DNA from: Thermoplasmata archaeon | Lineage (GTDB): Archaea > Thermoplasmatota > Thermoplasmata > Lutacidiplasmatales > UBA184 | Reading direction: 5' to 3' | NCBI GenBank assembly: GCA_021796385.1 | Contig: JAJYXQ010000033.1 | Span: 62,001 to 126,000, forward strand | Length of the DNA stretch: 64,000 nucleotides | Shown: piece after piece, positions 36,362 to 47,231 of the stretch | How positions within the stretch are numbered: the stretch's first letter is position 1 | How the letters are laid out: each line of letters opens with the position of its first letter | Position numbers and translations under genes: made by a program | The notes under the pieces: generated by a model | Told to the model about the DNA's origin: nothing | The model's database searches: none | Seen by the model: only the letters and a program-made list of their open reading frames with translations

Positions 36362-36556
36362 ATGTTCGACAGCATCGATGATTGGTTGATCATCCTCTTG
36401 GTGGCCGGGGTCCTCTTCTGGGGTTCCAGCAAGATCCCGCAACTAGCCCACAGCCTGGGACGCGCCACGGGTGAGTTCAAAAAGGGCCGGATGGAAGTCG
36501 ACAAGGAGATCGCGGATTCCAAGGCCCGCGACGCGGCGACCAAGACCCAGAGCTGA
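36362..36556 (+). CDS. tatA: Twin-arginine translocase subunit TatA
   Basis: 64 residues. A short N-terminal membrane helix (WLIILLVAGVLFWG) is followed by the hinge SSKIPQLAHSLGRATGEFKKG and a charged amphipathic tail, the TatA/E plan. TatA oligomers form the passage for folded proteins. AGGAGG at 36350-36355 is a good ribosome site, and ttcataagg at 36322-36330 is a likely TATA box. It heads an island running to cytochrome b. Confidence 0.88.
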   Translation: MFDSIDDWLIILLVAGVLFWGSSKIPQLAHSLGRATGEFKKGRMEVDKEIADSKARDAATKTQS

Positions 36557-36583: not shown

Positions 36584-37159
36584 ATGACCGAGGGACCGGA
36601 CGAGATCCGACGCAACGAGCTGAAGCGTCTCGTGTCGGCGGCCATTGGAGGCGGGATCGCCGTGGTCGGACCGGACCTTCCCCGGACCCCAACCGCACGA
36701 CCTACCCCGGGCCTCAGTCGCATTCCATCGAAGGGACCGATGCCGGCGCTCCTTTTGGATTCCGAATGGTGCCTCGTAGGTCACGGAAAGTACCTCAGCA
36801 TGACGGAGTTCCGCAACCAGTTGCGGGAGGGTCCGCTCAACTTCGCCTGGATGGGCACTCAAGTGGGACCCGGCCTCTTCCAGCCCGGGATCGGGCTCAC
36901 GCACGGACTCGTGGCGGAGTCCCCCGCCGGTGACCTCCGGGCGGCCAGCCAAGAGTGTGTCGCCGATGGCTTTCCCTTGCGATTCCAACCGGACCTGGAC
37001 CGGTGGGTGTGCGAACGTTGCGGGAGCGCCTATGCGGGCCGGGACGGCCGGGTCCTAGCGGCACCGGCCTCGAAACCTCTCGTCACCTTCTCGCTGCTCG
37101 AACTGGAAGGCGGTAAACGGGTGGCGCTCGTTCCGCCGAATGCCCGCCCGCCGAGATGA
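36584..37159 (+). CDS. Degenerate Rieske-fold protein with Tat-like signal
   Basis: 191 residues from the ATG at 36584 (a TTG at 36578 is less likely). The N-terminus IRRNELK followed by LVSAAIGGGIAVVG is a twin-arginine-type signal anchor. The C-terminal third follows the Rieske pattern closely: CVADGFPL (C125), then WVCERCGSAY (C143, C146), GRVLAAPASKPL and a final beta strand. Canonical Rieske needs CxH and CxxH/CxCHG. Here the first His is Ala127, the second His is replaced by Cys146 and the disulfide cysteines are absent. A normal 2Fe-2S Rieske cluster is therefore unlikely; a three-Cys site, another metal or a structural role is possible. It sits between tatA and tatC, overlapping tatC by ATGA. 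Confidence 0.65.
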   Translation: MTEGPDEIRRNELKRLVSAAIGGGIAVVGPDLPRTPTARPTPGLSRIPSKGPMPALLLDSEWCLVGHGKYLSMTEFRNQLREGPLNFAWMGTQVGPGLFQPGIGLTHGLVAESPAGDLRAASQECVADGFPLRFQPDLDRWVCERCGSAYAGRDGRVLAAPASKPLVTFSLLELEGGKRVALVPPNARPPR

Positions 37160-37974
37160 GCGAGCTCCAAAAGCTCCTCACGATACTCGATGAGGCCCGC
37201 CACCGGCTGATCCGCATACTCTACGTGGTCCTGCCGCTCTTCGCATTCTTCCTGGCGTTTCGGATCCAGTTCTTCCGGCTCGGCGGCGTGCCCTTTGCGA
37301 TCCCCTATCCCTACCCCAACCTCTTCGACAACGTGACGGCCCAAGTGTTCGCCTGGTTGCGCAGCGACATGCTACCCGCCGGGGTGATCCTCGTCAACAT
37401 CGGCATCGGGGACTCGGTGATCGCCCAGATGGAGATCGCCCTGCTTCTGACGTTCGTCTTCTCGATGCCCTGGATCGTCCACGAGCTCGGGGCGTTCCTA
37501 TCTCCGGCGCTGCGCCGTAACGAAAAGGAACTCCTGAAGACCCTCGCGATCCCCGCGACGGTACTGTTTGCCGTCGGGTTCCTCGTGGCCTTGCTCTGGC
37601 TCACCCCCTTCACCTTCTTCCTGCTCTTCCGGTACGTGGCGGCGATGGGGCTTGTACCGTACCTGTCCACGGACAGCTTCCTCACGTTCGCCCTGCTCTA
37701 CACCGTGGCCTTTGGGATCGTCTTCGAACTCCCGGTCTTTGTCTATGCGCTCACCCGTGTGGGTCTCGTGAAGTCCGCGTTCTGGTGGAAGCACTGGCGG
37801 GGGGCCGTCATGGGATGTTTCGTCTTCGGCATGGTCATCACCCCGGACAACTCGGGGATCACGATGGTGCTCATCGCCCTCCCGATGATCGCACTCTACT
37901 TCAGCGGCGCTTATTTCGCCCGTCGGATGGAGCGGCAGCGCGAGCACCGCGCGCTCCTTGCGGAACCTGCGTGA
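37156..37974 (+). CDS. tatC: Twin-arginine translocase subunit TatC
   Basis: 272 residues, six membrane helices. The N-terminal LLTILDEARHRLIRIL matches the conserved HLxELRxR region of TatC that binds the signal peptide. MPWIVHELGAFLSPALRRNE is the conserved loop after helix 2, and FGIVFELPVFVYALTRVGLV carries the conserved FExP motif with its Glu. MVITPDNSGITMVLIALPM matches the final conserved block (TPPDx). Full length and intact. It is coupled to the degenerate Rieske gene upstream. Confidence 0.93.
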   Translation: MSELQKLLTILDEARHRLIRILYVVLPLFAFFLAFRIQFFRLGGVPFAIPYPYPNLFDNVTAQVFAWLRSDMLPAGVILVNIGIGDSVIAQMEIALLLTFVFSMPWIVHELGAFLSPALRRNEKELLKTLAIPATVLFAVGFLVALLWLTPFTFFLLFRYVAAMGLVPYLSTDSFLTFALLYTVAFGIVFELPVFVYALTRVGLVKSAFWWKHWRGAVMGCFVFGMVITPDNSGITMVLIALPMIALYFSGAYFARRMERQREHRALLAEPA

Positions 37975-38060: not shown

Positions 38061-38399
38061 GTGAGTCTATTCTCCGACGTGGACTGGATGATCCTCCTTC
38101 TCGTGGGAGGGCTCCTCCTCTTGGGCGGGAACAACAAGGAACTCCTGCGCACGGCGGGACGCATGTACGCCCGCGTCACCCGCATGCGCGACGAGTTCCT
38201 GAAGGACCTTCGGGACTCGGTGAACGAGCCGGCCCCCCCGGTCAGTACCCCTGCACCGACTCCCGGGGTATGGGCGGTCGGCACGGCCCGCAGCATTCCA
38301 CCCCTCTCCCGGGAGGAGGCCGCCGCCTCTCTGGCCCGGTTGGGAGGAGAGCGACCGGAAGCCTTGACCGCGAGCACCCCCGAGGTGAAGGGCGCATGA
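38061..38399 (+). CDS. Second TatA/TatB-like protein
   Basis: 112 residues from GTG 38061, with AAGGAGGG at 38048-38055 as ribosome site and accttatag at about 38015-38023 as TATA box. An N-terminal hydrophobic helix (WMILLLVGGLLLLGG) is followed by a basic amphipathic helix (KELLRTAGRMYARVTRMRDEFLKDL) and a Pro/Thr-rich tail. The plan matches TatA/TatB, and the longer tail favours a TatB-like partner. It starts a second operon segment running into the Rieske and cytochrome b genes and overlaps the next gene by ATGA. Confidence 0.7.
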   Translation: MSLFSDVDWMILLLVGGLLLLGGNNKELLRTAGRMYARVTRMRDEFLKDLRDSVNEPAPPVSTPAPTPGVWAVGTARSIPPLSREEAAASLARLGGERPEALTASTPEVKGA

Positions 38400-38782
38400 C
38401 CCGGAGGCTCTGGCTCGCCCTCCCCCTGGGATTGCTCCTGTTCGCCGCCTTGGTACCGACCCACCTCGCCGGAACCCCGGACCTCGTTGCCGGCGGGTCC
38501 ACCAACGCCCTCACGGCCGCGAACTCCTCCGCCTCTTCGGACCCGTCCTCTTCTTCCATCACCTGCCCCGTGGACACGAACATCACCCTCGGTTCCGTGA
38601 CGCTCAACTGCTTCCAATCACTAGACCTCGCCGAAGTGGGGGCGATCCTCATCGGTGTGGCGATCACGGTCTACATCTACTGGGACTCCGACCGGGCCGA
38701 GCTCCCAGGGGATTCGAGCGAGGTGCCCGTCACATCAGCGGAGGAAGTCGAACTCATGGAGAAACGGAGGAAGCTCAAATGA
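38396..38782 (+). CDS. Small exported membrane protein of the Rieske/cytochrome b cluster
   Basis: 128 residues from the ATG at 38396. It has a signal peptide (LWLALPLGLLLFAALVPTHLAG), then a Ser/Asn-rich extracellular stretch with two cysteines (SITCPVDTNIT and LNCFQSLD). One membrane helix (VGAILIGVAITVYIYW) and an acidic cytosolic end with a Lys-rich tip complete it. Overlaps both neighbours by 4 nt. The position suggests an accessory subunit of the bc-type complex; no heme motif (CxxCH) is present. Confidence 0.65.
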   Translation: MTRRLWLALPLGLLLFAALVPTHLAGTPDLVAGGSTNALTAANSSASSDPSSSSITCPVDTNITLGSVTLNCFQSLDLAEVGAILIGVAITVYIYWDSDRAELPGDSSEVPVTSAEEVELMEKRRKLK

Positions 38783-39633
38783 CGATCGATCTGGACGCAC
38801 TCGCCCCGGCCGCCCTGCTCAACCAGCGGCTCGAGTTCCTGCACGCGATGCTGACGAACTCGCGCCCCGGCGTCGTTCGGAAGGTGACCACGGTGCGGGC
38901 GGCGGATCAGCCCGCCGATGACAGAGCCCAGGAAGCCGTGGACGAGTCGAAGCGCAACGCCCTCAAGCTCCTCGCCATCGGAGGGATCGCGGCCGTGGGC
39001 GCGGGAGCGGGTATCGCCGGTGGGCTGCAATTGCTCGAACCTCCCATGCAAGGTCTCTCGGCCTTCCCCAAGGTCCAGCTCTTCTACGACGACGGTTCGC
39101 CGGTCGTCGCGAGCCAGTACAAGTACTCCTACCAGGACAACGGCCAGGTCATTTTCGATTATCCCCTGACGAACGAGCCCAACATGCTGCTCAACCTCGC
39201 CCCGAACTCGCTCGGTTCCCCGGCGCCCGACAACCCGATCCCGGGCCCGAACGGTTCGGTGATCGTCGCCTACTCGGCCATCTGCCAGCACCTCGGATGC
39301 ATCCCGCCATACATCTCCTACTACCCGCCCGGCATGTGCGGCGGCTTCAATGGCGGGAAGGCCATCATCCACTGTGTTTGTCACGGGTCCACATATGACC
39401 CCGCGGTCAAGGAGACGTCCACGGGAGGCGGGGCCCAGGTCCTCACCGGACCCACGGTCTCCCCCATCCCCCAGGTCATCCTGGAGACGGATGCGAGCGG
39501 GTACCTGTACGCGACGAGCATGATCGGTCCGGCGGTCAAGGGGCATCTTTCGACCCTGGTCGGCGGGACCGGGGTGTCTCCCAAGGCCATCGCCTCCGCC
39601 CCCTCGACCCCCACCCAGAGCTGTCCTACGTGA
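38779..39633 (+). CDS. Rieske 2Fe-2S protein
   Basis: 284 residues. All cluster ligands are present: C169 and H171 in CQHLGC, C199, C201 and H202 in CVCHGSTYDP, with C174-C201 as the expected disulfide. This is the electron carrier between quinol at cytochrome b and its acceptor. The N-terminal anchor SKRNALKLLAIGGIAAVG resembles a Tat signal with Lys-Arg in place of Arg-Arg (K58-R59), in keeping with the tat genes next door. A 60-residue cytosolic stretch precedes the helix, longer than usual. It is coupled to the small membrane protein upstream and followed by cytochrome b after 16 nt. Confidence 0.93.
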   Translation: MTIDLDALAPAALLNQRLEFLHAMLTNSRPGVVRKVTTVRAADQPADDRAQEAVDESKRNALKLLAIGGIAAVGAGAGIAGGLQLLEPPMQGLSAFPKVQLFYDDGSPVVASQYKYSYQDNGQVIFDYPLTNEPNMLLNLAPNSLGSPAPDNPIPGPNGSVIVAYSAICQHLGCIPPYISYYPPGMCGGFNGGKAIIHCVCHGSTYDPAVKETSTGGGAQVLTGPTVSPIPQVILETDASGYLYATSMIGPAVKGHLSTLVGGTGVSPKAIASAPSTPTQSCPT

Positions 39634-39649: not shown

Positions 39650-40981
39650 ATGGGAGAAGGCATTTCAGGAGGGACTTCGGCCAAGCCGGAGGTGCCCTAC
39701 AAGCCCTTCTTCAACCGTACGCTCGACCGGGTCTGGGGGGCGATCGATGAACGCCTGGGCACCCAGAAGTGGCCCCTGCGCCCCCAACCGGATTTCTCCT
39801 TCCAACCGGGGTACTGGACGGGGGCCTTTGTGGCCACCGCCTTCATCTTCCAAGTGGTCTCGGGGATCCTGCTGCTCTTCTACTACGTTCCCTCGACCCA
39901 GCTCGCCACGGCAGGGGGGATCTATCCTGCGGGGGCTCCGCTCGCCTGGGGCTCGACGTACTACATCATCCACACGGTGCCGCTCGGCTGGTTCCTTTTG
40001 TCGACCCACCTCTACGGGGCCTACGCCACGATCTTCCTCGCCTTCATCCACTTCTTCCGGGGGTTCTACACGGGCGTCTACAAGAAGCCCCGGGAATTCA
40101 CCTGGATGATCGGGACCCTGCTCCTCGTCTCGATGCTGGGGATGGGTTTCACCGGTTACCTCCTCCCGTACACTGCGCTCTCGGTGGGAGCCACGGATGT
40201 GGGGATCGTGCTCACGCTCGCCGTGCCGGGCGGCACGACCCTGGCCCCGCTCATCCTCGGCAACGCCACTGACCAGGCGCTCCTTTCCCGGATGTTCGCG
40301 CTCCACGTGGTAGGGATCCCCCTCGCCCTCGCCGGGCTTCTCGGGGCCCACATCCTCCTGTTCGAGACGCATGGTGTCGCACCCCGAGCCTCGAGCGACC
40401 CCCAGGCGAAACGGGTGATCACGGAGGAGGACGATCGGAAGATGGGCAAGTTCTTCCCCAAGGTCTTCCTGTACATGACGAAATGGGCCCTTTTCTATGC
40501 CGGAGGGCTCTTCCTCATCGTGGCGATCTGGCCCTGGCAGCTCCCGGTCTTCTATGGGTCGAGTTCGGCGGGCGGTTCGTCCCCGGAACCGGACTGGTAC
40601 TTCCTTTGGTTGTACAAGGTGATGGACTTCCAGGGGGTCACTCCCATCATCGCCGTGGGGGCGGTGACGCTCCTCATCCTCTTCGTGCTTTTCCTGCCTT
40701 GGATCGACCGCCGACCGCTCACGAGCACGAAGACCCATCCGAGGGACCGGCCGGTCCTCGTGATCGTCGGGAACTTCCTCGCCGGATTGTTCCTCGTCCT
40801 TACCGTGTGGGGCGGGGTCATGCCCGGGGTCGTTATCCCCACCAGCATGTATGCCACCTACCTGGGGTCTATCCTCCTTGTGAACATCGTTCTCGTGTTC
40901 GCCTTCTACGCCCGGTACCGGGCCCAATACAGCCGCCGCTTGTTGAAGCGGGGGGCGGAGGGAAATGTCGCGCCCAAGTAG
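39650..40981 (+). CDS. Cytochrome b of a bc/b6f-type quinol oxidoreductase
   Basis: 443 residues, about nine helices. Heme ligands: STHLYGAYATIFLAFIHF gives His-x13-His in helix B, and ALHVVGIPLALAGLLGAH gives His-x14-His in helix D. The 13/14 spacing matches cytochrome b6 rather than mitochondrial b. The quinol-site motif reads PDWYFLWLYK in place of PEWY. The C-terminal domain (subunit IV part) is fused. Together with the Rieske protein it oxidises quinol and moves protons. Its end overlaps the start of the next small gene. Confidence 0.93.
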   Translation: MGEGISGGTSAKPEVPYKPFFNRTLDRVWGAIDERLGTQKWPLRPQPDFSFQPGYWTGAFVATAFIFQVVSGILLLFYYVPSTQLATAGGIYPAGAPLAWGSTYYIIHTVPLGWFLLSTHLYGAYATIFLAFIHFFRGFYTGVYKKPREFTWMIGTLLLVSMLGMGFTGYLLPYTALSVGATDVGIVLTLAVPGGTTLAPLILGNATDQALLSRMFALHVVGIPLALAGLLGAHILLFETHGVAPRASSDPQAKRVITEEDDRKMGKFFPKVFLYMTKWALFYAGGLFLIVAIWPWQLPVFYGSSSAGGSSPEPDWYFLWLYKVMDFQGVTPIIAVGAVTLLILFVLFLPWIDRRPLTSTKTHPRDRPVLVIVGNFLAGLFLVLTVWGGVMPGVVIPTSMYATYLGSILLVNIVLVFAFYARYRAQYSRRLLKRGAEGNVAPK

Positions 40982-41219
40982 GTCGGGCCGTCTCTGGACG
41001 GTCCTGACCGCGATGCTGGTCTCCGGTATGGCGTGCCTCGCCGTGGTGGTTTGGGCCCTGGGGGCGGCCCTGAGCGGGGGGGCGCTATGGCTCTACCTTC
41101 CCCTTGCGGGAATCGCCTTCGTGGTCTTCCTCTTCCTGGCGCTCCTCGCCATGGGGATCGTGTACCGGGTCGACCGGCTCCGGGGCGATGTCACACGGCG
41201 CGTGAGGTTGTTCGAGTAA
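40965..41219 (+). CDS. Two-helix membrane protein after cytochrome b
   Basis: 84 residues; its ATG lies inside the last codons of cytochrome b (17-nt overlap). Two membrane helices (VLTAMLVSGMACLAVVVWALG, WLYLPLAGIAFVVFLFLALLAMG) and a basic end. Likely a small subunit or assembly factor of the complex, judged by position only. Confidence 0.65.
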   Translation: MSRPSRSGRLWTVLTAMLVSGMACLAVVVWALGAALSGGALWLYLPLAGIAFVVFLFLALLAMGIVYRVDRLRGDVTRRVRLFE

Positions 41220-41220
41220 C

Positions 41221-41925
41221 ATGCGGGCAGGGATCCTTGTCTTGGGGCTGGTGCTGGCGGTCGTGGGCGGTGCACTCGTGCTCTCGCCCATCAACGAGAC
41301 GAAGAGCTATGACATCCACGGTCCGCAGAACCCGGCCCCCCCGATCGGGCAGAGCTATCCGTTCGCCATCGGGGATACGATCCTGTACAACGTGAGCTGG
41401 ACGGGGGGTTCGAACTCAACCTCGATCCTCGCCTACGACTGCGGGACGAATGCCCATTGTACGGGCAACCTCACGCTTGTGGCGGCCGAGAGCGGTATCG
41501 CGGGGGCCTATACCGTCGGTATCGCCCCGGGGCATTATCTTCTCCTGAACTCGACGGCCGAGGTCAACGTGACGGTCGTCATCATGTTCGCCGGCAGCTA
41601 TGGGCTCCTCGGGTTGCCTCCCTTCGTGATCGGGATCGGCCTCATCGCCTACGGGTGGATGACGTACCCCGGAGGCCGCCGGGCTCCAAGGCCCGCCTCG
41701 CGTCGGCAGGACGCCTACCTCGCCGCGATGACGGTGCTCCTCATCATCCTCGGCATGGTCGCAGGGTACATGTTCACCCTCGGCCCATTGAACTCTTGGG
41801 GGACGGAGAGCGCCTTCGGCCTCGCACTAGCGGCGGGCATGATCGATCTCGGTCTTATCTTCCACATATTGGACGTGGCCTATCGCGACGAGTCCCTCGA
41901 GATCCGTCGCAAGCTCTTCGAGTGA
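41221..41925 (+). CDS. Membrane protein, last gene of the cytochrome b cluster
   Basis: 234 residues, 1 nt after the previous stop. N-terminal helix (GILVLGLVLAVVGGALVLSP), an external domain of about 100 residues with NxS/T sites and one Cys pair (CGTNAHC), then four helices in pairs (GLPPFVIGIGLIAYGW; MTVLLIILGMVAGYMFTLG; GLALAAGMIDLGLIFHIL). Short basic C-terminus. It might be an accessory subunit. No cofactor motif. Confidence 0.6.
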   Translation: MRAGILVLGLVLAVVGGALVLSPINETKSYDIHGPQNPAPPIGQSYPFAIGDTILYNVSWTGGSNSTSILAYDCGTNAHCTGNLTLVAAESGIAGAYTVGIAPGHYLLLNSTAEVNVTVVIMFAGSYGLLGLPPFVIGIGLIAYGWMTYPGGRRAPRPASRRQDAYLAAMTVLLIILGMVAGYMFTLGPLNSWGTESAFGLALAAGMIDLGLIFHILDVAYRDESLEIRRKLFE

Positions 41926-42043: not shown

Positions 42044-45000
42044 TCACGGGGAAGGAGGTGGGAAGTACGGAGGCGGGCCGGCTTCGATGGGGGGCTGGGG
42101 AGGGACCTTGTTCCGACGCCGACGCAGGCTCCGGAACAGGAACACCGCGGCGACGAGCACCAGAATGCCGGCAGCCACGATACCCCAGAAGAGCGGCGTC
42201 TCATAGACCGGGGGAGCATAGGAGATCGATGAGGGCGCGACCGTGATCGTGGCCGGGGCCGCCGCCATGGTCTGCCCGTTCAAGGTGGCGTTGAGGTACA
42301 CGAGCGCTGTCCCTACGTCGATACCGGCGGAGAACGTCACTTCGGGAGAAGTAGTGTTGTTGAGGTATCCTTCGTTCCCCCGGACCGACCAAGAGTACCG
42401 CAGGGACGTTCCGCAGGGGACGTTCCCGCAGGCGACCGTGGAACGAAGGTCGACCCACTGACCCGGCACGAGCGCAAATCGTATCGGGGAGATCTGGACG
42501 GAAGAGAGCTGCGGAACGGTCACGAAGATCATGGGTGGTGGCTGGGCCGCCACGGTCACCCCGTCGAGGGTCACGTTGAGGTAGATGCTCACCGTACCCG
42601 GAGTCAGACCGGCGGTGAATAGCGCCGAGCCGTTGCCAACGGGTTGGATCCGTCCGAGGGTGTTGCTGAGCGTCCAATTGTACGTGGCGCCCCCCGGGCA
42701 TGGACCGGGAGTGCATCCGAGCGTGGTGTTGAACCACTGCGTCGACCCCACTGCGACGTACACGGCGAACGGTACCGCGGTCACCGTGGTCAGGATCGGA
42801 CCGTTCCCTGGGATGACGTCGAGCGTGATGTTCGTGGAGCGGGCCTGCGTGCCGAAACTGTCGTTGACCTCGACGAACGCATGGAACACCCCGGGCGTAG
42901 CATAGGTGTGCGTAGGGTCCTCGAGCGTGCTGGTCCCTCCATCCCCGAAGCTCCAATGGAACTGGGAGTAGTTCCCCGATCCCCCAATGGGATGGGCGAC
43001 GAACCCAACGACCAAGGGGGTCCGGCCCGAGGTCACGTTGGCCGTGGCCGTTACCGAAAGGGGCGGGGTCGCCGAGATAACGAGGACACGGGATGTCGTT
43101 CGGAGCCCGTCGCTGTCGGTGACCGTGAGGTTGACGGGATACGTTCCCGGCGTGGTGAAGGTGAACGGGGTCGAGGGGCCGGGAATGAACGTGCCATTTC
43201 CCAGGGACCAGAGGTAGCCAGGATAGACTCCCGAGCCTCCCGAGACCTGGGAGGAGAAGGAGGCCGAAAGGGGTGCCACCCCGCCGGTGCGGTTTGCGGA
43301 CACGTTGACGCGGAGGGGAGGGAGAGGGGTGTCGAGATAGGTAAGCGTCCCCGAGACCTGGTCGCTGACGAAGCTCAAGCTGGCGTTCCCATCGGTTGCC
43401 ACCCCATCGGGCTGGTCTCCGACCGAAAGGTTCCCTAGGAGGGTCTGGTTCGGCGCGGACAGGACCGAAACCGAGTTGGATGCGCCCCCGGCGATGTAGA
43501 GGTCCTGCGTGGCCCGGTCGAGGGCAATGGCACCGGGGAACCCTCCCACGGGGATCGACCCGACGGGTCGGAACGCGCTATCGGAGAGCACTGTGACGTT
43601 GCCCGCGCCGGCGTTGGTCACGAAGATGCGGCCCAAGGTGCTGTCGCAAGCGACGCCCGTCGGCGATGCGCCCACCGGGATTTCCCGATAGATCGTGGTG
43701 CCCCGGGGGTCGAGCACGGTCACGTTGTTGGTCGAACTGACGGCGACGAAGAGGAGCCCATCCCCGGGATCGTAGCATATCCCCATGGGGCCGCCGGGAA
43801 CGCGCCCAGAGCCGTTCAGGAGGTCCGTGGTCGTGTTAAGGGCGGTCACATTGTCCGAGTTGACATCGGCGATGAAGAGGCGCTGGTCCTGCGGGTCGTA
43901 GGCCATCGCTCCGGGCGAACCGCTCACCGGGATCGTCGCCGTCACAAAATTGGTTCGGGGGTCGATCTGGGAGACCGCATTGGACCCGCTATCGCTGACG
44001 TAGATATCCCCTGAAGCCCCGGCCACGGCGATGGACTGGGGGCTGCTTCCCACCGGGACCCTTCCGATCACCGAGGCGTTCTGGGCCGAGACGACCCACA
44101 CCACATTGGCGGCGGTATCCGCCACGTAGAGGTTTCCCGTGTTCGGGTCGAAGGTGGCCCCGGTGGGGAGCGAATTGACGGGCAAGGTTTCGAGCGCGTC
44201 GCCGGCCGATCCCGACAGCACGGTGAGCGAGGTCCCCGAGACGTTTCCCACGTAGACTTCGGCGTTCTCCGGATCAAAGCTGATGTTCCCGGGAGTTCCT
44301 CCGATGGTGATGGTGCCGACCGTGGTCCCCGTCACACCGGACAGCACGTAGATGGCCCTTGCGAGCGCGCAGCTGACGAACACGGCGCCATCGCTCGTGT
44401 CGACGGCCAGGGAAACCGGGTCCGAACCGACGGGGAGGTCCAGGGTCACTTGCCCGGTCGTCGGGGAGACGATCGAGAGGTTCGAGGACCGGGCGTTCGC
44501 CGCATAGAGGTCGCCGTCTTCGCCGTCATAGGCGAGGCTCACGGGCCCCGACCCAACCGGGATGCTCCGGAAGGGACGGACCGATGCGGAAGAGACCTCG
44601 GTGAGGTTGTCGGAGAGGTAGTTTGCCACGAATATCTCCCGGAGCGGGGCATCCACCGCGAGGGCGTCCGGGCCGGACCCCACCGGGATGCTCCCCAGAA
44701 TCTTGTCGGTTGCTCCGGAGATCAGGCTCAGGTTCGCCGATCCGTAGTTTGCGACCACGATGTCCCCGCTCGCGGGATCGAAGGCCAGGGCATCCGGTTC
44801 GGAGCCCACGGACACGTTCGCCACGGCCCGGAGCGGTGTTCCGGCGAGTACGGTCACGGTTCCCGTTCCCCGTCCGGTGACGTAAACGTGACCGGTGACG
44901 GGATCAAGGGTGACGGCGGTAGGGGAATAGGGAAAGGTGATGGAGTACCGCACGATGTTCGCCGGTCCGGACAGAACGTCGAGGGCATCCGAGGTCGGGT

Positions 45001-46270
45001 CGACGACCAGGACCTCCCCGGTCAGGGGGTCGGCAACCGATTCTGAGGGGGCTTGGAAGCCCGGGACCCGGGCGAGAACCGTGTTCGGTAAAGTTCGGGG
45101 GAGGGTGCTATTGCTCGTTAGGATGGAGATGACATTGGCGGAATAGTCCGCGACATAGACCGCCCCGTCGTTGTTGTTGACCCCGAGCCCCTCAGGGCCA
45201 AGGCCCACCGAGATGTTCGCAAGGACCGTTCGGGTGGTACCGTTGATCACGGTGACGTTGTTGGCGGCATGGTCGCTGACGTAGAGGTCCCCCGAGAGCG
45301 GGTTGAACGCCACGTCCCAGGGAGTTCGTCCCACGGGGATCGTCCCGATGATACTTGCCGAGGCGGGAGCGATGACCGTGACATTGTTCGATGACGAATC
45401 AGTGACGAAGAGCTCGTTCAGGATCGGGTCGTAGCTGACGGCGGTCGGCCCTCCGGGGACGGGGATCGAGCCCGTGACAGTGTTGGTGGTCGTGTTGATG
45501 ATGGAGAGGTTATTGGAGACGAAGTTCGCCACGTAGATGTCCCGGTCCGAGGGATCGAATATCCCTCCCTCCGGTCGCGACCCCGTTGCGATCGAGGCGA
45601 TGATCTGGTGAGTGCTTCCGGAGATGACGGAGATGTTTCCGGAGACGTCGTTCGTCACGTACACGTTTCCCGAGACGGGATCGATGATGGGGTCGTACGG
45701 ATCGCCCCCGGCTCCCACGCTTGCGACGACCCGGTTCGTGAAGGTGGAGACGATGGAGACGTTGTTCGAGGCACCGTTGGTCACGAAGAGCTCCTGATCG
45801 ACCGGGTCGTACCCCGCCTCGTTCGGGGTGACCCCGACATCGAGGTTGGTGACGACGGAGTTCGTCACAGCGGAAATCACCAAGACCGAGTCTTCTGGCG
45901 GAAAGGGAGAGATCGTGGTGCAGGGCACATAGACATCATCGCTCGAATTGGCAAAAGCGACGGCGGTCGGTTCCATACAGTTGTAGGTGTTGTTGAGGTT
46001 GCCCGGGACGAAGCTTCCGCTTTGGAGACGCAGGGTGCCGTTCACGGACGCGGTGACGGCACGTCCATTCGACTTCGGGTGCCTGAGCGGGCCATGGGAG
46101 GACACCGTGGTCGAAGGGATCACCAAGGGTGCGGTAGCGTGGGAGGCAAGACCGCTGCTCACGCCTGCTCCGACATTCAGCGGAGCCGATAGAGCGAGGA
46201 GGACCAAGGACAGGAGCACAAGCTTCGGAGCGCTGCCGATGTGGCGGAACGGGCTCCCTGCCCTATCCAT
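42044..46270 (-). CDS. Giant surface protein: 21-blade YVTN/YncE-like propeller, PKD domains, anchor
   Basis: 1408 residues from the ATG at 46270. Signal peptide (KLVLLSLVLLALSAPLNVGAG), then about 21 repeats of roughly 42 residues with the signature DxxxxxLYVxNxxxNNVSVI and SIPVGxxPxxVAYDP (nt about 46000-43330). Twenty-one blades would make three seven-bladed propellers. Two PKD domains follow (VNLTVTDSDGLRTTSR; FHWSFGDGGTSTLEDPTHTY), two Ig-like segments, a membrane helix (LFWGIVAAGILVLVAAVFLF), a basic stop RSLRRRRNK and a Pro-rich end. NxS/T sites are frequent. Probably an S-layer-associated or adhesion protein. An alternative upstream start to 46606 includes Arg-rich sequence and is rejected. 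Confidence 0.85.
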   Translation of the reverse strand: MDRAGSPFRHIGSAPKLVLLSLVLLALSAPLNVGAGVSSGLASHATAPLVIPSTTVSSHGPLRHPKSNGRAVTASVNGTLRLQSGSFVPGNLNNTYNCMEPTAVAFANSSDDVYVPCTTISPFPPEDSVLVISAVTNSVVTNLDVGVTPNEAGYDPVDQELFVTNGASNNVSIVSTFTNRVVASVGAGGDPYDPIIDPVSGNVYVTNDVSGNISVISGSTHQIIASIATGSRPEGGIFDPSDRDIYVANFVSNNLSIINTTTNTVTGSIPVPGGPTAVSYDPILNELFVTDSSSNNVTVIAPASASIIGTIPVGRTPWDVAFNPLSGDLYVSDHAANNVTVINGTTRTVLANISVGLGPEGLGVNNNDGAVYVADYSANVISILTSNSTLPRTLPNTVLARVPGFQAPSESVADPLTGEVLVVDPTSDALDVLSGPANIVRYSITFPYSPTAVTLDPVTGHVYVTGRGTGTVTVLAGTPLRAVANVSVGSEPDALAFDPASGDIVVANYGSANLSLISGATDKILGSIPVGSGPDALAVDAPLREIFVANYLSDNLTEVSSASVRPFRSIPVGSGPVSLAYDGEDGDLYAANARSSNLSIVSPTTGQVTLDLPVGSDPVSLAVDTSDGAVFVSCALARAIYVLSGVTGTTVGTITIGGTPGNISFDPENAEVYVGNVSGTSLTVLSGSAGDALETLPVNSLPTGATFDPNTGNLYVADTAANVVWVVSAQNASVIGRVPVGSSPQSIAVAGASGDIYVSDSGSNAVSQIDPRTNFVTATIPVSGSPGAMAYDPQDQRLFIADVNSDNVTALNTTTDLLNGSGRVPGGPMGICYDPGDGLLFVAVSSTNNVTVLDPRGTTIYREIPVGASPTGVACDSTLGRIFVTNAGAGNVTVLSDSAFRPVGSIPVGGFPGAIALDRATQDLYIAGGASNSVSVLSAPNQTLLGNLSVGDQPDGVATDGNASLSFVSDQVSGTLTYLDTPLPPLRVNVSANRTGGVAPLSASFSSQVSGGSGVYPGYLWSLGNGTFIPGPSTPFTFTTPGTYPVNLTVTDSDGLRTTSRVLVISATPPLSVTATANVTSGRTPLVVGFVAHPIGGSGNYSQFHWSFGDGGTSTLEDPTHTYATPGVFHAFVEVNDSFGTQARSTNITLDVIPGNGPILTTVTAVPFAVYVAVGSTQWFNTTLGCTPGPCPGGATYNWTLSNTLGRIQPVGNGSALFTAGLTPGTVSIYLNVTLDGVTVAAQPPPMIFVTVPQLSSVQISPIRFALVPGQWVDLRSTVACGNVPCGTSLRYSWSVRGNEGYLNNTTSPEVTFSAGIDVGTALVYLNATLNGQTMAAAPATITVAPSSISYAPPVYETPLFWGIVAAGILVLVAAVFLFRSLRRRRNKVPPQPPIEAGPPPYFPPPSP

Positions 46271-46295
46271 GCACACGAGAGAGCGGGCTGTGGGG

Positions 46296-46305
46296 AAAAG
46301 CTTAC
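46296..46305 (-). promoter_or_regulatory. TATA-like box of the propeller gene
   Basis: On the minus strand the sequence reads gtaagctttt, centred about 30 nt before the ATG at 46270. It supports that start. Confidence 0.4.
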
Positions 46306-46464
46306 CGCCCGATCCCGCGCACAATGTCGTGCGAGGGGTGGCCATCTTCGGTGGAGTCGATATCCTCTTCGGGTGACATAAGCAGATTGTGGTCGCATAG
46401 CGAAGGACCGTCGCACCGACCGAGGGTCCATTGCCTTTTTGTGGTCCATAGCCTAGGGGAGACC

Positions 46465-46566
46465 ATGCACGAAGAGGGCGAGGGAGGACAGGAGGCCGAG
46501 CGGGGTCGAACCTCTCGGCCAACGATCCAATCTCCGGTCGTCCTGTGCAAAGTGGGGTGGGGATGA
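46465..46566 (+). CDS. Possible 33-codon upstream ORF
   Basis: ATG at 46465 lies about 27 nt after a ctttttgtgg box and opens 33 codons (MHEEGEGGQE start). They end in TGA overlapping the next gene's ATG at 46563 (ATGA). The arms ggccgag and ctcggcc (46494-46521) form an inverted repeat inside it. It could be a small coupled peptide or just a leader. Confidence 0.25.
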   Translation: MHEEGEGGQEAERGRTSRPTIQSPVVLCKVGWG

Positions 46567-47231
46567 TGGCCAGTCCGACCCAATGCCCGTACTGTGGCCA
46601 ATTCATCCGGCCCGGGTCCTCCCAGTGTGGTTACTGTGGTCAGTTCTTGGGCCCCCAGTTCGAAGGACCCTCCCAAGGATACCCAAGCCCCGGGGCGGGA
46701 TATCCCCCCCAGTACGGTTACGCCCCCGGACCCGGTCCGTACGCCGGCTATCCCCCGGCCCAAGGAGGTGCTCCACCAGGGTACGGTTCTCCGGGCCCCT
46801 CCCCTCCTGCCAAGAAGAAGAGCCGATGGGTCGTCGGGGTGGTGCTTGCCGTGGTGGTCGTGGTCGTCCTCATGGTCGTGCTCTTGGCGGTCCCCTTTTC
46901 GAAGGGCTCGGCCACCCAGAACATCTCCTGCTATACCGCGGGTTCCTCCGGGAGCCCCTTGTATTACAATCAGACCCTCTCATCGGGTACTGTCACCGTG
47001 AGCTGGACCTCGAGCGGTGCCAAGGCCGTGGTCGTGATCGGGGAAGGCTACGGATCTTCAGCGGTGGTGGTCTACCAAAGTGCGAGCGCGTCCAATCCTT
47101 CGGGCTGGACGACTTCGGGATCCGGGACCTTCTCGAGCCCGGGGAACAACTTCGTGGCCGCGTGCGTGGCCGATACCACCGTCTCGACGACGGTCAGCAT
47201 CACGTTCTCGACCTCAGGCCCCTTGCTCTAG
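46563..47231 (+). CDS. Zinc ribbon - Pro/Tyr/Gly-rich linker - membrane helix - extracellular domain
   Basis: 222 residues from the ATG at 46563 (a GTG at 46545 would add six). N-terminal cytosolic zinc ribbon CPYCGQFI to CGYCGQFL, a linker of PGPGPYAGYPPAQGG type, a basic stretch KKKSR, and one long membrane helix (WVVGVVLAVVVVVVLMVVLLAVPF). A Ser/Gly/Thr-rich beta domain of about 100 residues outside contains two cysteines. It is the same arrangement as the S53 peptidase tail but in the opposite order. Function unknown; the divergent partner is the giant propeller protein. Confidence 0.7.
   Translation: MMASPTQCPYCGQFIRPGSSQCGYCGQFLGPQFEGPSQGYPSPGAGYPPQYGYAPGPGPYAGYPPAQGGAPPGYGSPGPSPPAKKKSRWVVGVVLAVVVVVVLMVVLLAVPFSKGSATQNISCYTAGSSGSPLYYNQTLSSGTVTVSWTSSGAKAVVVIGEGYGSSAVVVYQSASASNPSGWTTSGSGTFSSPGNNFVAACVADTTVSTTVSITFSTSGPLL

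Follow-up and report, generated by a model that had tools for sequence, protein, structure and literature searches.

The two loops that hold the Rieske cluster have a geometry like that of rubredoxin and the zinc ribbon, and in ARF, the Rieske-type ferredoxin of Sulfolobus, the designed substitutions H44I/K45C/H64C gave a rubredoxin-like mononuclear site, as reported by Iwasaki et al. in 2005 (PMC2946596). According to the same source, H64C alone gave a [2Fe-2S] cluster with three Cys and one His as ligands, and alteration of the first His ligand impaired assembly in Rieske mutant work (PMC2946596). Additionally, the wild-type Rieske protein PetA of Thermochromatium tepidum was crystallised with one Zn bound by two inner Cys residues and two chlorides (PMC10492824), and Cys3Asp ligation of a [2Fe-2S] cluster is reported from nature in 1NEK (PMC11138216). 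In Lutacidiplasmatales, the neighbourhood of complex IV was described as containing complex III, Tat, a cupredoxin and six functionally uncharacterised proteins (PMC9287336).

In this study, we analysed a window of 64,000 nucleotides from a Lutacidiplasmatales genome (GCA_021796385.1, contig JAJYXQ010000033.1). The window encodes, at 36584–37159 on the forward strand, a 191-residue Rieske-fold protein with a remodelled cluster site, which we call RieX. Its ATG lies at 36584 and its TGA stop at 37157–37159, and the assignment draws on the sequence, Pfam, a homologue alignment, an AF2 model and a profile match. A first-pass annotation had described a remodelled Rieske domain with the landmarks CxADGxPL, WVCxxCGSAY and GRVLxxPAxxPL, and all three are present, as CVADGFPL, WVCERCGSAY and GRVLAAPASKPL. 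Its numbering of C125, C143 and C146 is correct, as are its statements that neither Rieske His is retained (127 is Ala and 146 is Cys) and that the gene lies inside the translocase operon in the order tatA, RieX, tatC, with PF02416 upstream and PF00902 downstream. This recognition of a Rieske protein was non-trivial, since the match to the Pfam Rieske domain PF00355 is sub-threshold (13.2 bits; cut-off 20.3), and both the homologues and the AF2 model agree with it. When the single sequence was searched against PDB sequences, the best matches were weak ones to Rieske proteins (8hn2_A, E = 0.063), and with the RieX family profile the same chain was found at E = 0.0017. The ORF is not a product of chance: its three Cys are conserved in eight homologues, its AF2 model matches Rieske structures, and its dN/dS is low.

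Based on an alignment of eight RieX sequences, AF2 model 1 reached a mean pLDDT of 80.2 and a pTM of 0.69, with 120 of 191 residues at or above 90 and low values over the N-terminal residues to about 47. All 11 chains that Foldseek returned from the PDB for this model at E ≤ 0.001 were Rieske, with 8hn2_A at the top (E = 5.4e-5). In VIA-align, the arsenite oxidase Rieske subunit 1g8j_B aligned over 106 residues (Z 10.5, rmsd 2.8), and the best 50 rows were Rieske proteins, Rieske ferredoxins or Rieske-domain oxygenases. Model 2, built from G005 and three g7 homologues without any g1 sequence, had a mean pLDDT of 71.4 and again matched Rieske structures of the same families; nitrite reductase small subunits (3c0d and 4aiv) were among its fold matches. 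NirD, the small subunit of nitrite reductase, has a Rieske fold without a cluster. RieX resembles it in having this fold without the canonical ligands, whereas NirD has no Cys3Asp set and is a soluble enzyme subunit. A viral fold search with RieX gave no match at E ≤ 0.001. Collectively, the structural comparisons of the two models predict that RieX has a Rieske fold.

The canonical Rieske ligands, C-x-H and C-x2-H, are absent from RieX, which has C-x-A-D and C-x2-C in their places. Four residues of this region are invariant in all eight RieX sequences, the homologues sharing 39–76% identity with the window protein. These are Cys125, the Rieske Cys of loop 1 (codon 36956–36958, forward strand); Asp128, the residue after the lost first His and the proposed fourth ligand (36965–36967, forward); Cys143, the Rieske Cys of loop 2 (37010–37012, forward); and Cys146, at the position of the second Rieske His (37019–37021, forward). 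Asp139, Arg140 and Trp141 are likewise invariant. In contrast, position 127, where the first His would stand, varies across the eight sequences (A, A, H, F, R, R, V and E), with the one His in G004. No column beyond the four Cys columns (C63, C125, C143 and C146) holds Cys or His in at least three of the eight sequences, and no His is invariant among them. Cys63 was considered as a fourth Cys ligand and rejected; its column reads C, C, C, C, R, R, S and W, with Cys only in genus g1 (4/8). Both Cys of the Rieske disulfide pair are absent from the RieX sequence.

The resulting pattern, C-x2-D-x14-C-x2-C, is spaced like a pair of zinc-ribbon or rubredoxin knuckles in which Asp stands in for one Cys. 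RieX does not have two C-x2-C knuckles as rubredoxin and zinc ribbons do; one C-x2-C and one C-x2-D are found in 8/8 sequences. Asp as the fourth ligand is unusual for a rubredoxin or zinc ribbon. The RieX family profile matches the archaeal zinc-ribbon ribosomal protein S27ae (6tmf_Z, E = 0.014), with Asp128 opposite its Cys ligand; this similarity is weak, and only the shared CxxC knuckles may lie behind it. Intact b6-type relatives carry the acidic residue Glu at the Asp128 position; thus, the conservation of Asp128 may be partly inherited. The new metal site suggested by the first-pass annotation gains from the predicted Rieske fold and the invariant residues and stays putative; the annotation named the three cysteines, which are indeed conserved, and overlooked Asp128, the most informative residue.

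As aligned, the RieX site is altered at the same three positions as the ARF triple mutant H44I/K45C/H64C. In both proteins, a Rieske scaffold has lost the first His, the ligand, putative in RieX, has moved one residue on, and the second His has become Cys (PMC2946596). However, the ARF variant is man-made and Cys4, whereas RieX is natural with Asp in the fourth place. The Zn form of PetA is also similar to RieX as proposed, in that one Zn sits on two inner Cys of a Rieske scaffold; in contrast, that form is thought to be immature and contains two chlorides, and the normal PetA cofactor is [2Fe-2S] (PMC10492824). Searches of open-licence PMC papers found no natural Rieske protein with a site of the RieX type.

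To place RieX among Rieske proteins, we compared it with intact ones. Those of the b6 type from G116, G141 and G538, which belong to other Thermoplasmata families, are colinear with RieX over the full length, RR signal-anchor included, at about 29–32% identity (hhalign 97.3%, E = 2.7e-11, 175 columns), and they differ from it in keeping the CTH...C-x-C-H ligands. The genes in G116 and G141 adjoin cytochrome b, while RieX instead lies between tatA and tatC. The SoxL2-like Rieske protein of the window (38779–39633) belongs to the same cluster as RieX and begins with a similar (K/R)RNxLK-type anchor, but its ligands are intact and its head domain has no detectable similarity. Accordingly, hhalign of RieX against six SoxL2-like Rieske proteins of its own family matched only 29 anchor columns (5.6%). 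These end-to-end and anchor-only matches together indicate that the RieX head is a remodelled b6-type Rieske domain, with ligands that were formerly intact, rather than a duplicate of the neighbouring protein. A recent duplication of the adjacent Rieske gene was considered and rejected. A search of its own genome with RieX returned nothing but RieX, PF00355 picked up no protein except the adjacent Rieske, and a profile comparison of the two proteins matched no more than the 29 anchor columns.

RieX was found in eight genomes of one archaeal family, that of the window included; a search of 150 relatives gave the seven others at 42–76% identity, and a scan of the genome contigs gave one locus, L029, on a contig as long as that of G002. 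In a profile search of 103 family genomes, the 12 matches at E ≤ 0.001 comprised the eight RieX proteins and four ordinary Rieske domains with intact ligands. By genus, RieX occurs in four of five g1 genomes, one of g2 and three of g7; the fifth g1 genome is 64% complete and also has no tatC match. Outside g1, g2 and g7, RieX was found neither in the class-level profile search (12 of 400 genomes matched, 8 with RieX) nor in the phylum-level one (11 of 389, 7 with RieX), two draws of genomes that overlap and are not independent. The other matches in these searches had intact Rieske ligands in all inspected sequences or alignments. In 8/8 genomes, RieX lies between tatA1 and tatC. Downstream on the same contig are an intact Rieske gene in seven of the eight and cytochrome b in six, and contig ends explain the rest.

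We then read 30 tatC loci, of which six carry RieX, five have a different ORF in its slot and 19 have neither; the RieX loci of G015 and G020 were counted outside these 30 (6 + 2 = 8). In the 19 loci, from g4, g5 and g6, tatA1 directly precedes tatC and the tat-bc cluster is otherwise the same. RieX is therefore not present wherever the bc complex occurs. Four g3 genomes account for four of the replaced loci, and G020, in a second copy, for the fifth. In the tatC tree, g3 groups with the genera that carry RieX (100/98) and branches within that group (94/83), which suggests that RieX arose once and that g3 later lost it or retained it in degenerate form. The cytb tree gives a less clean picture (three changes), with second cytb copies mixed in, and the two trees lend weak support to this history.

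The tatA1–tatC intervals of the five replaced loci (L056, L057, L059, L061 and L066; g3 and the second G020 contig) hold a proline-rich, Cys-free ORF. A stretch of 26 columns in the g3 ORF is RieX-like (hhalign score 19.1), and none of 100 column shuffles scored as high (best 15.8), although the hhalign probability is only 1%. It is possible that this ORF is a remnant of RieX without the metal lobe. The genome G020 (7% contamination) has two tat-bc clusters, on contigs C88 and C183, one of them with RieX. The second is nearly identical to the g3 genomes in tatC and cytb and is perhaps on a contaminating contig.

In the window, the cluster runs on the forward strand from tatA1 through RieX, tatC, tatA2, a small membrane protein, the intact SoxL2-like Rieske gene and cytochrome b to two membrane ORFs. 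The first gene, tatA1 (36362–36556), encodes a TatA/B/E family protein of 64 residues (PF02416, E = 2.5e-10) and is upstream of RieX in 8/8 genomes. The start of tatC (37156–37974; 272 residues) overlaps the RieX stop in ATGA, and its product matches PF00902 (E = 1.5e-41) and, below its cut-off, TIGR01912. The product of tatA2 (38061–38399) is a TatA-like small membrane protein assigned by BLASTP similarity to tatA1-type proteins of relatives; it gave no Pfam TatA match. The small membrane protein at 38396–38782, with unassigned function and an inferred start, is the conserved part of a 170-residue ORF listed at 38270, and its C-terminal part is conserved in relatives. The intact Rieske protein (38779–39633; CQHLGC...CVCHGS) has a KR-type anchor, exceeds the cut-off of PF00355 and matches TIGR03171 below its cut-off (E = 1.2e-39). 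Cytochrome b (39650–40981) is SoxC/SoxN-like by PF13631/PF00033 and by NF041076 (E = 6.6e-71, below its cut-off). The two membrane ORFs are orf84 (40965–41219), a small protein conserved in relatives, and orf234 (41221–41925), a multi-TM protein.

In the relative G005, orf234 is fused to a full COX1 (L036:12829–15108; PF00115, E = 2.8e-146), and its counterparts in G010 and G015 are of the same length. The genome of the window has a single COX1 match, on another contig (C50), and the bc-oxidase cluster seems to be split in its lineage. Beyond the cluster, the reverse strand at 42044–46606 encodes a 1520-residue surface-type protein with YNCE/NHL beta-propeller repeats and PKD domains.

The N-terminus of the window protein reads IRRNELKRL and continues into a moderately hydrophobic stretch. 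The RR pair is at residues 9–10 (36608–36613, forward strand), and the stretch, a signal or membrane anchor, covers residues 16–30 (36629–36673, forward; best 15-residue Kyte-Doolittle mean 1.79). The RR-type signal claimed by the first-pass annotation is thus present, but it is conserved in only five of the eight homologues, namely all four of g1 and G020; G010 and G015 have TR, and G005 has QR. The intact neighbouring Rieske has KRN in 7/7 sequences (the window and six relatives), and KR or RK is reported to serve in Tat signals as well (PMC6251230). For these reasons, the RieX signal is best seen as an inherited Rieske anchor.

We propose that RieX is anchored in the membrane and serves the archaeal bc complex as an accessory or assembly subunit, with a single structural metal ion that is probably Zn, and consider the case for this evenly balanced. 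RieX would descend from a b6-type Rieske subunit, retaining the N-terminal signal/anchor and the fold, while a rubredoxin- or zinc-ribbon-like site with the knuckles C125-x2-D128 and C143-x2-C146 replaced [2Fe-2S](Cys)2(His)2. A single metal ion, most likely Zn(II) or alternatively Fe, would be bound tetrahedrally and would lock the two tip loops that were formerly held together by the cluster. The protein would be exported or inserted and anchored on the outer face of the membrane, where it may form an additional part of the bc complex encoded alongside it or help to assemble that complex. Because the quinol-contacting His is gone, it would be unable to take electrons from quinol. A subunit of the bc complex was also among the suggestions of the first-pass annotation; the gene cluster, of the SoxL2/SoxN type, does continue from tatA-RieX-tatC (8/8) into an intact Rieske and cytochrome b, and from this gene order we infer the association. 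That evolution converted a respiratory Rieske [2Fe-2S] domain to a mononuclear Cys3Asp site at the positions of the ARF mutant, with a membrane-anchored product that partners the bc complex, serves its Tat-dependent assembly or does both, is put forward tentatively, at slightly less than even confidence.

The invariant Cys in Rieske positions could instead hold a natural low-potential [2Fe-2S] cluster, ligated by Cys3Asp or by Cys3 and one other residue, which would make RieX a redox-active carrier beside the bc complex. Cys3Asp ligation has its precedent in 1NEK (PMC11138216), and the single His-to-Cys Rieske mutant still formed [2Fe-2S] (PMC2946596). We find this doubtful: position 127 varies freely in the eight homologues, whereas alteration of the first His impaired assembly in the mutants (PMC2946596); Asp128 has the mononuclear knuckle spacing C-x2-D, as in the engineered triple mutant; and both disulfide Cys are missing. 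The loss of the ligands, the eroding RR pair and the Cys-free g3 ORF with its 26 RieX-like columns could also be read as signs of a decaying Rieske gene without function, kept by translational coupling to tatC. However, the three Cys and Asp128 are invariant down to 39% identity, and no homologue contains a stop. Moreover, the pairwise dN/dS of RieX is 0.12, 0.15 and 0.25 against G002, G004 and G003, respectively, well under 1 and similar to tatC (0.08, 0.15 and 0.26 in the same comparisons), the intact Rieske and cytb; with dS of about 1.4, near saturation, these ratios are rough. RieX appears to be under purifying selection, and given its conservation decay seems unlikely, to the point that we regard it as highly improbable.

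A role for RieX in the Tat translocase, as a folded pilot, a quality-control factor or an assembly factor that mimics the Rieske head during export of the real Rieske protein, would agree with its place between tatA and tatC in 8/8 genomes, with the overlap of stop and start in the window, and with the description of Rieske proteins as Tat substrates (PMC3623810, PMC6251230). The quality-control or test cargo of the first-pass annotation is of this kind. However, the RR pair is missing in three of the eight proteins, which leaves a dedicated Tat function weakly supported, and in 19 of the 30 tatC loci the tat-bc cluster lacks RieX and has no other ORF in its place. In addition, tat genes adjoin bc genes across the family anyway, and this family-wide linkage, also reported from Lutacidiplasmatales (PMC9287336), explains the placement of RieX beside them. 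We consider such a role unlikely, and retain the structural-metal subunit of the bc complex as the preferred reading.

The likeness of the Rieske loops to rubredoxin and the zinc ribbon and the designed switch between them are already described (PMC2946596). If the proposal is true, RieX, as a natural and conserved case, would document directly how one metal site evolved into another, with a comparison set at hand in its intact relatives and in the sister genus g3, where the site seems to have been lost altogether. The tat-bc-oxidase gene cluster would also gain a further, as yet unassigned component.
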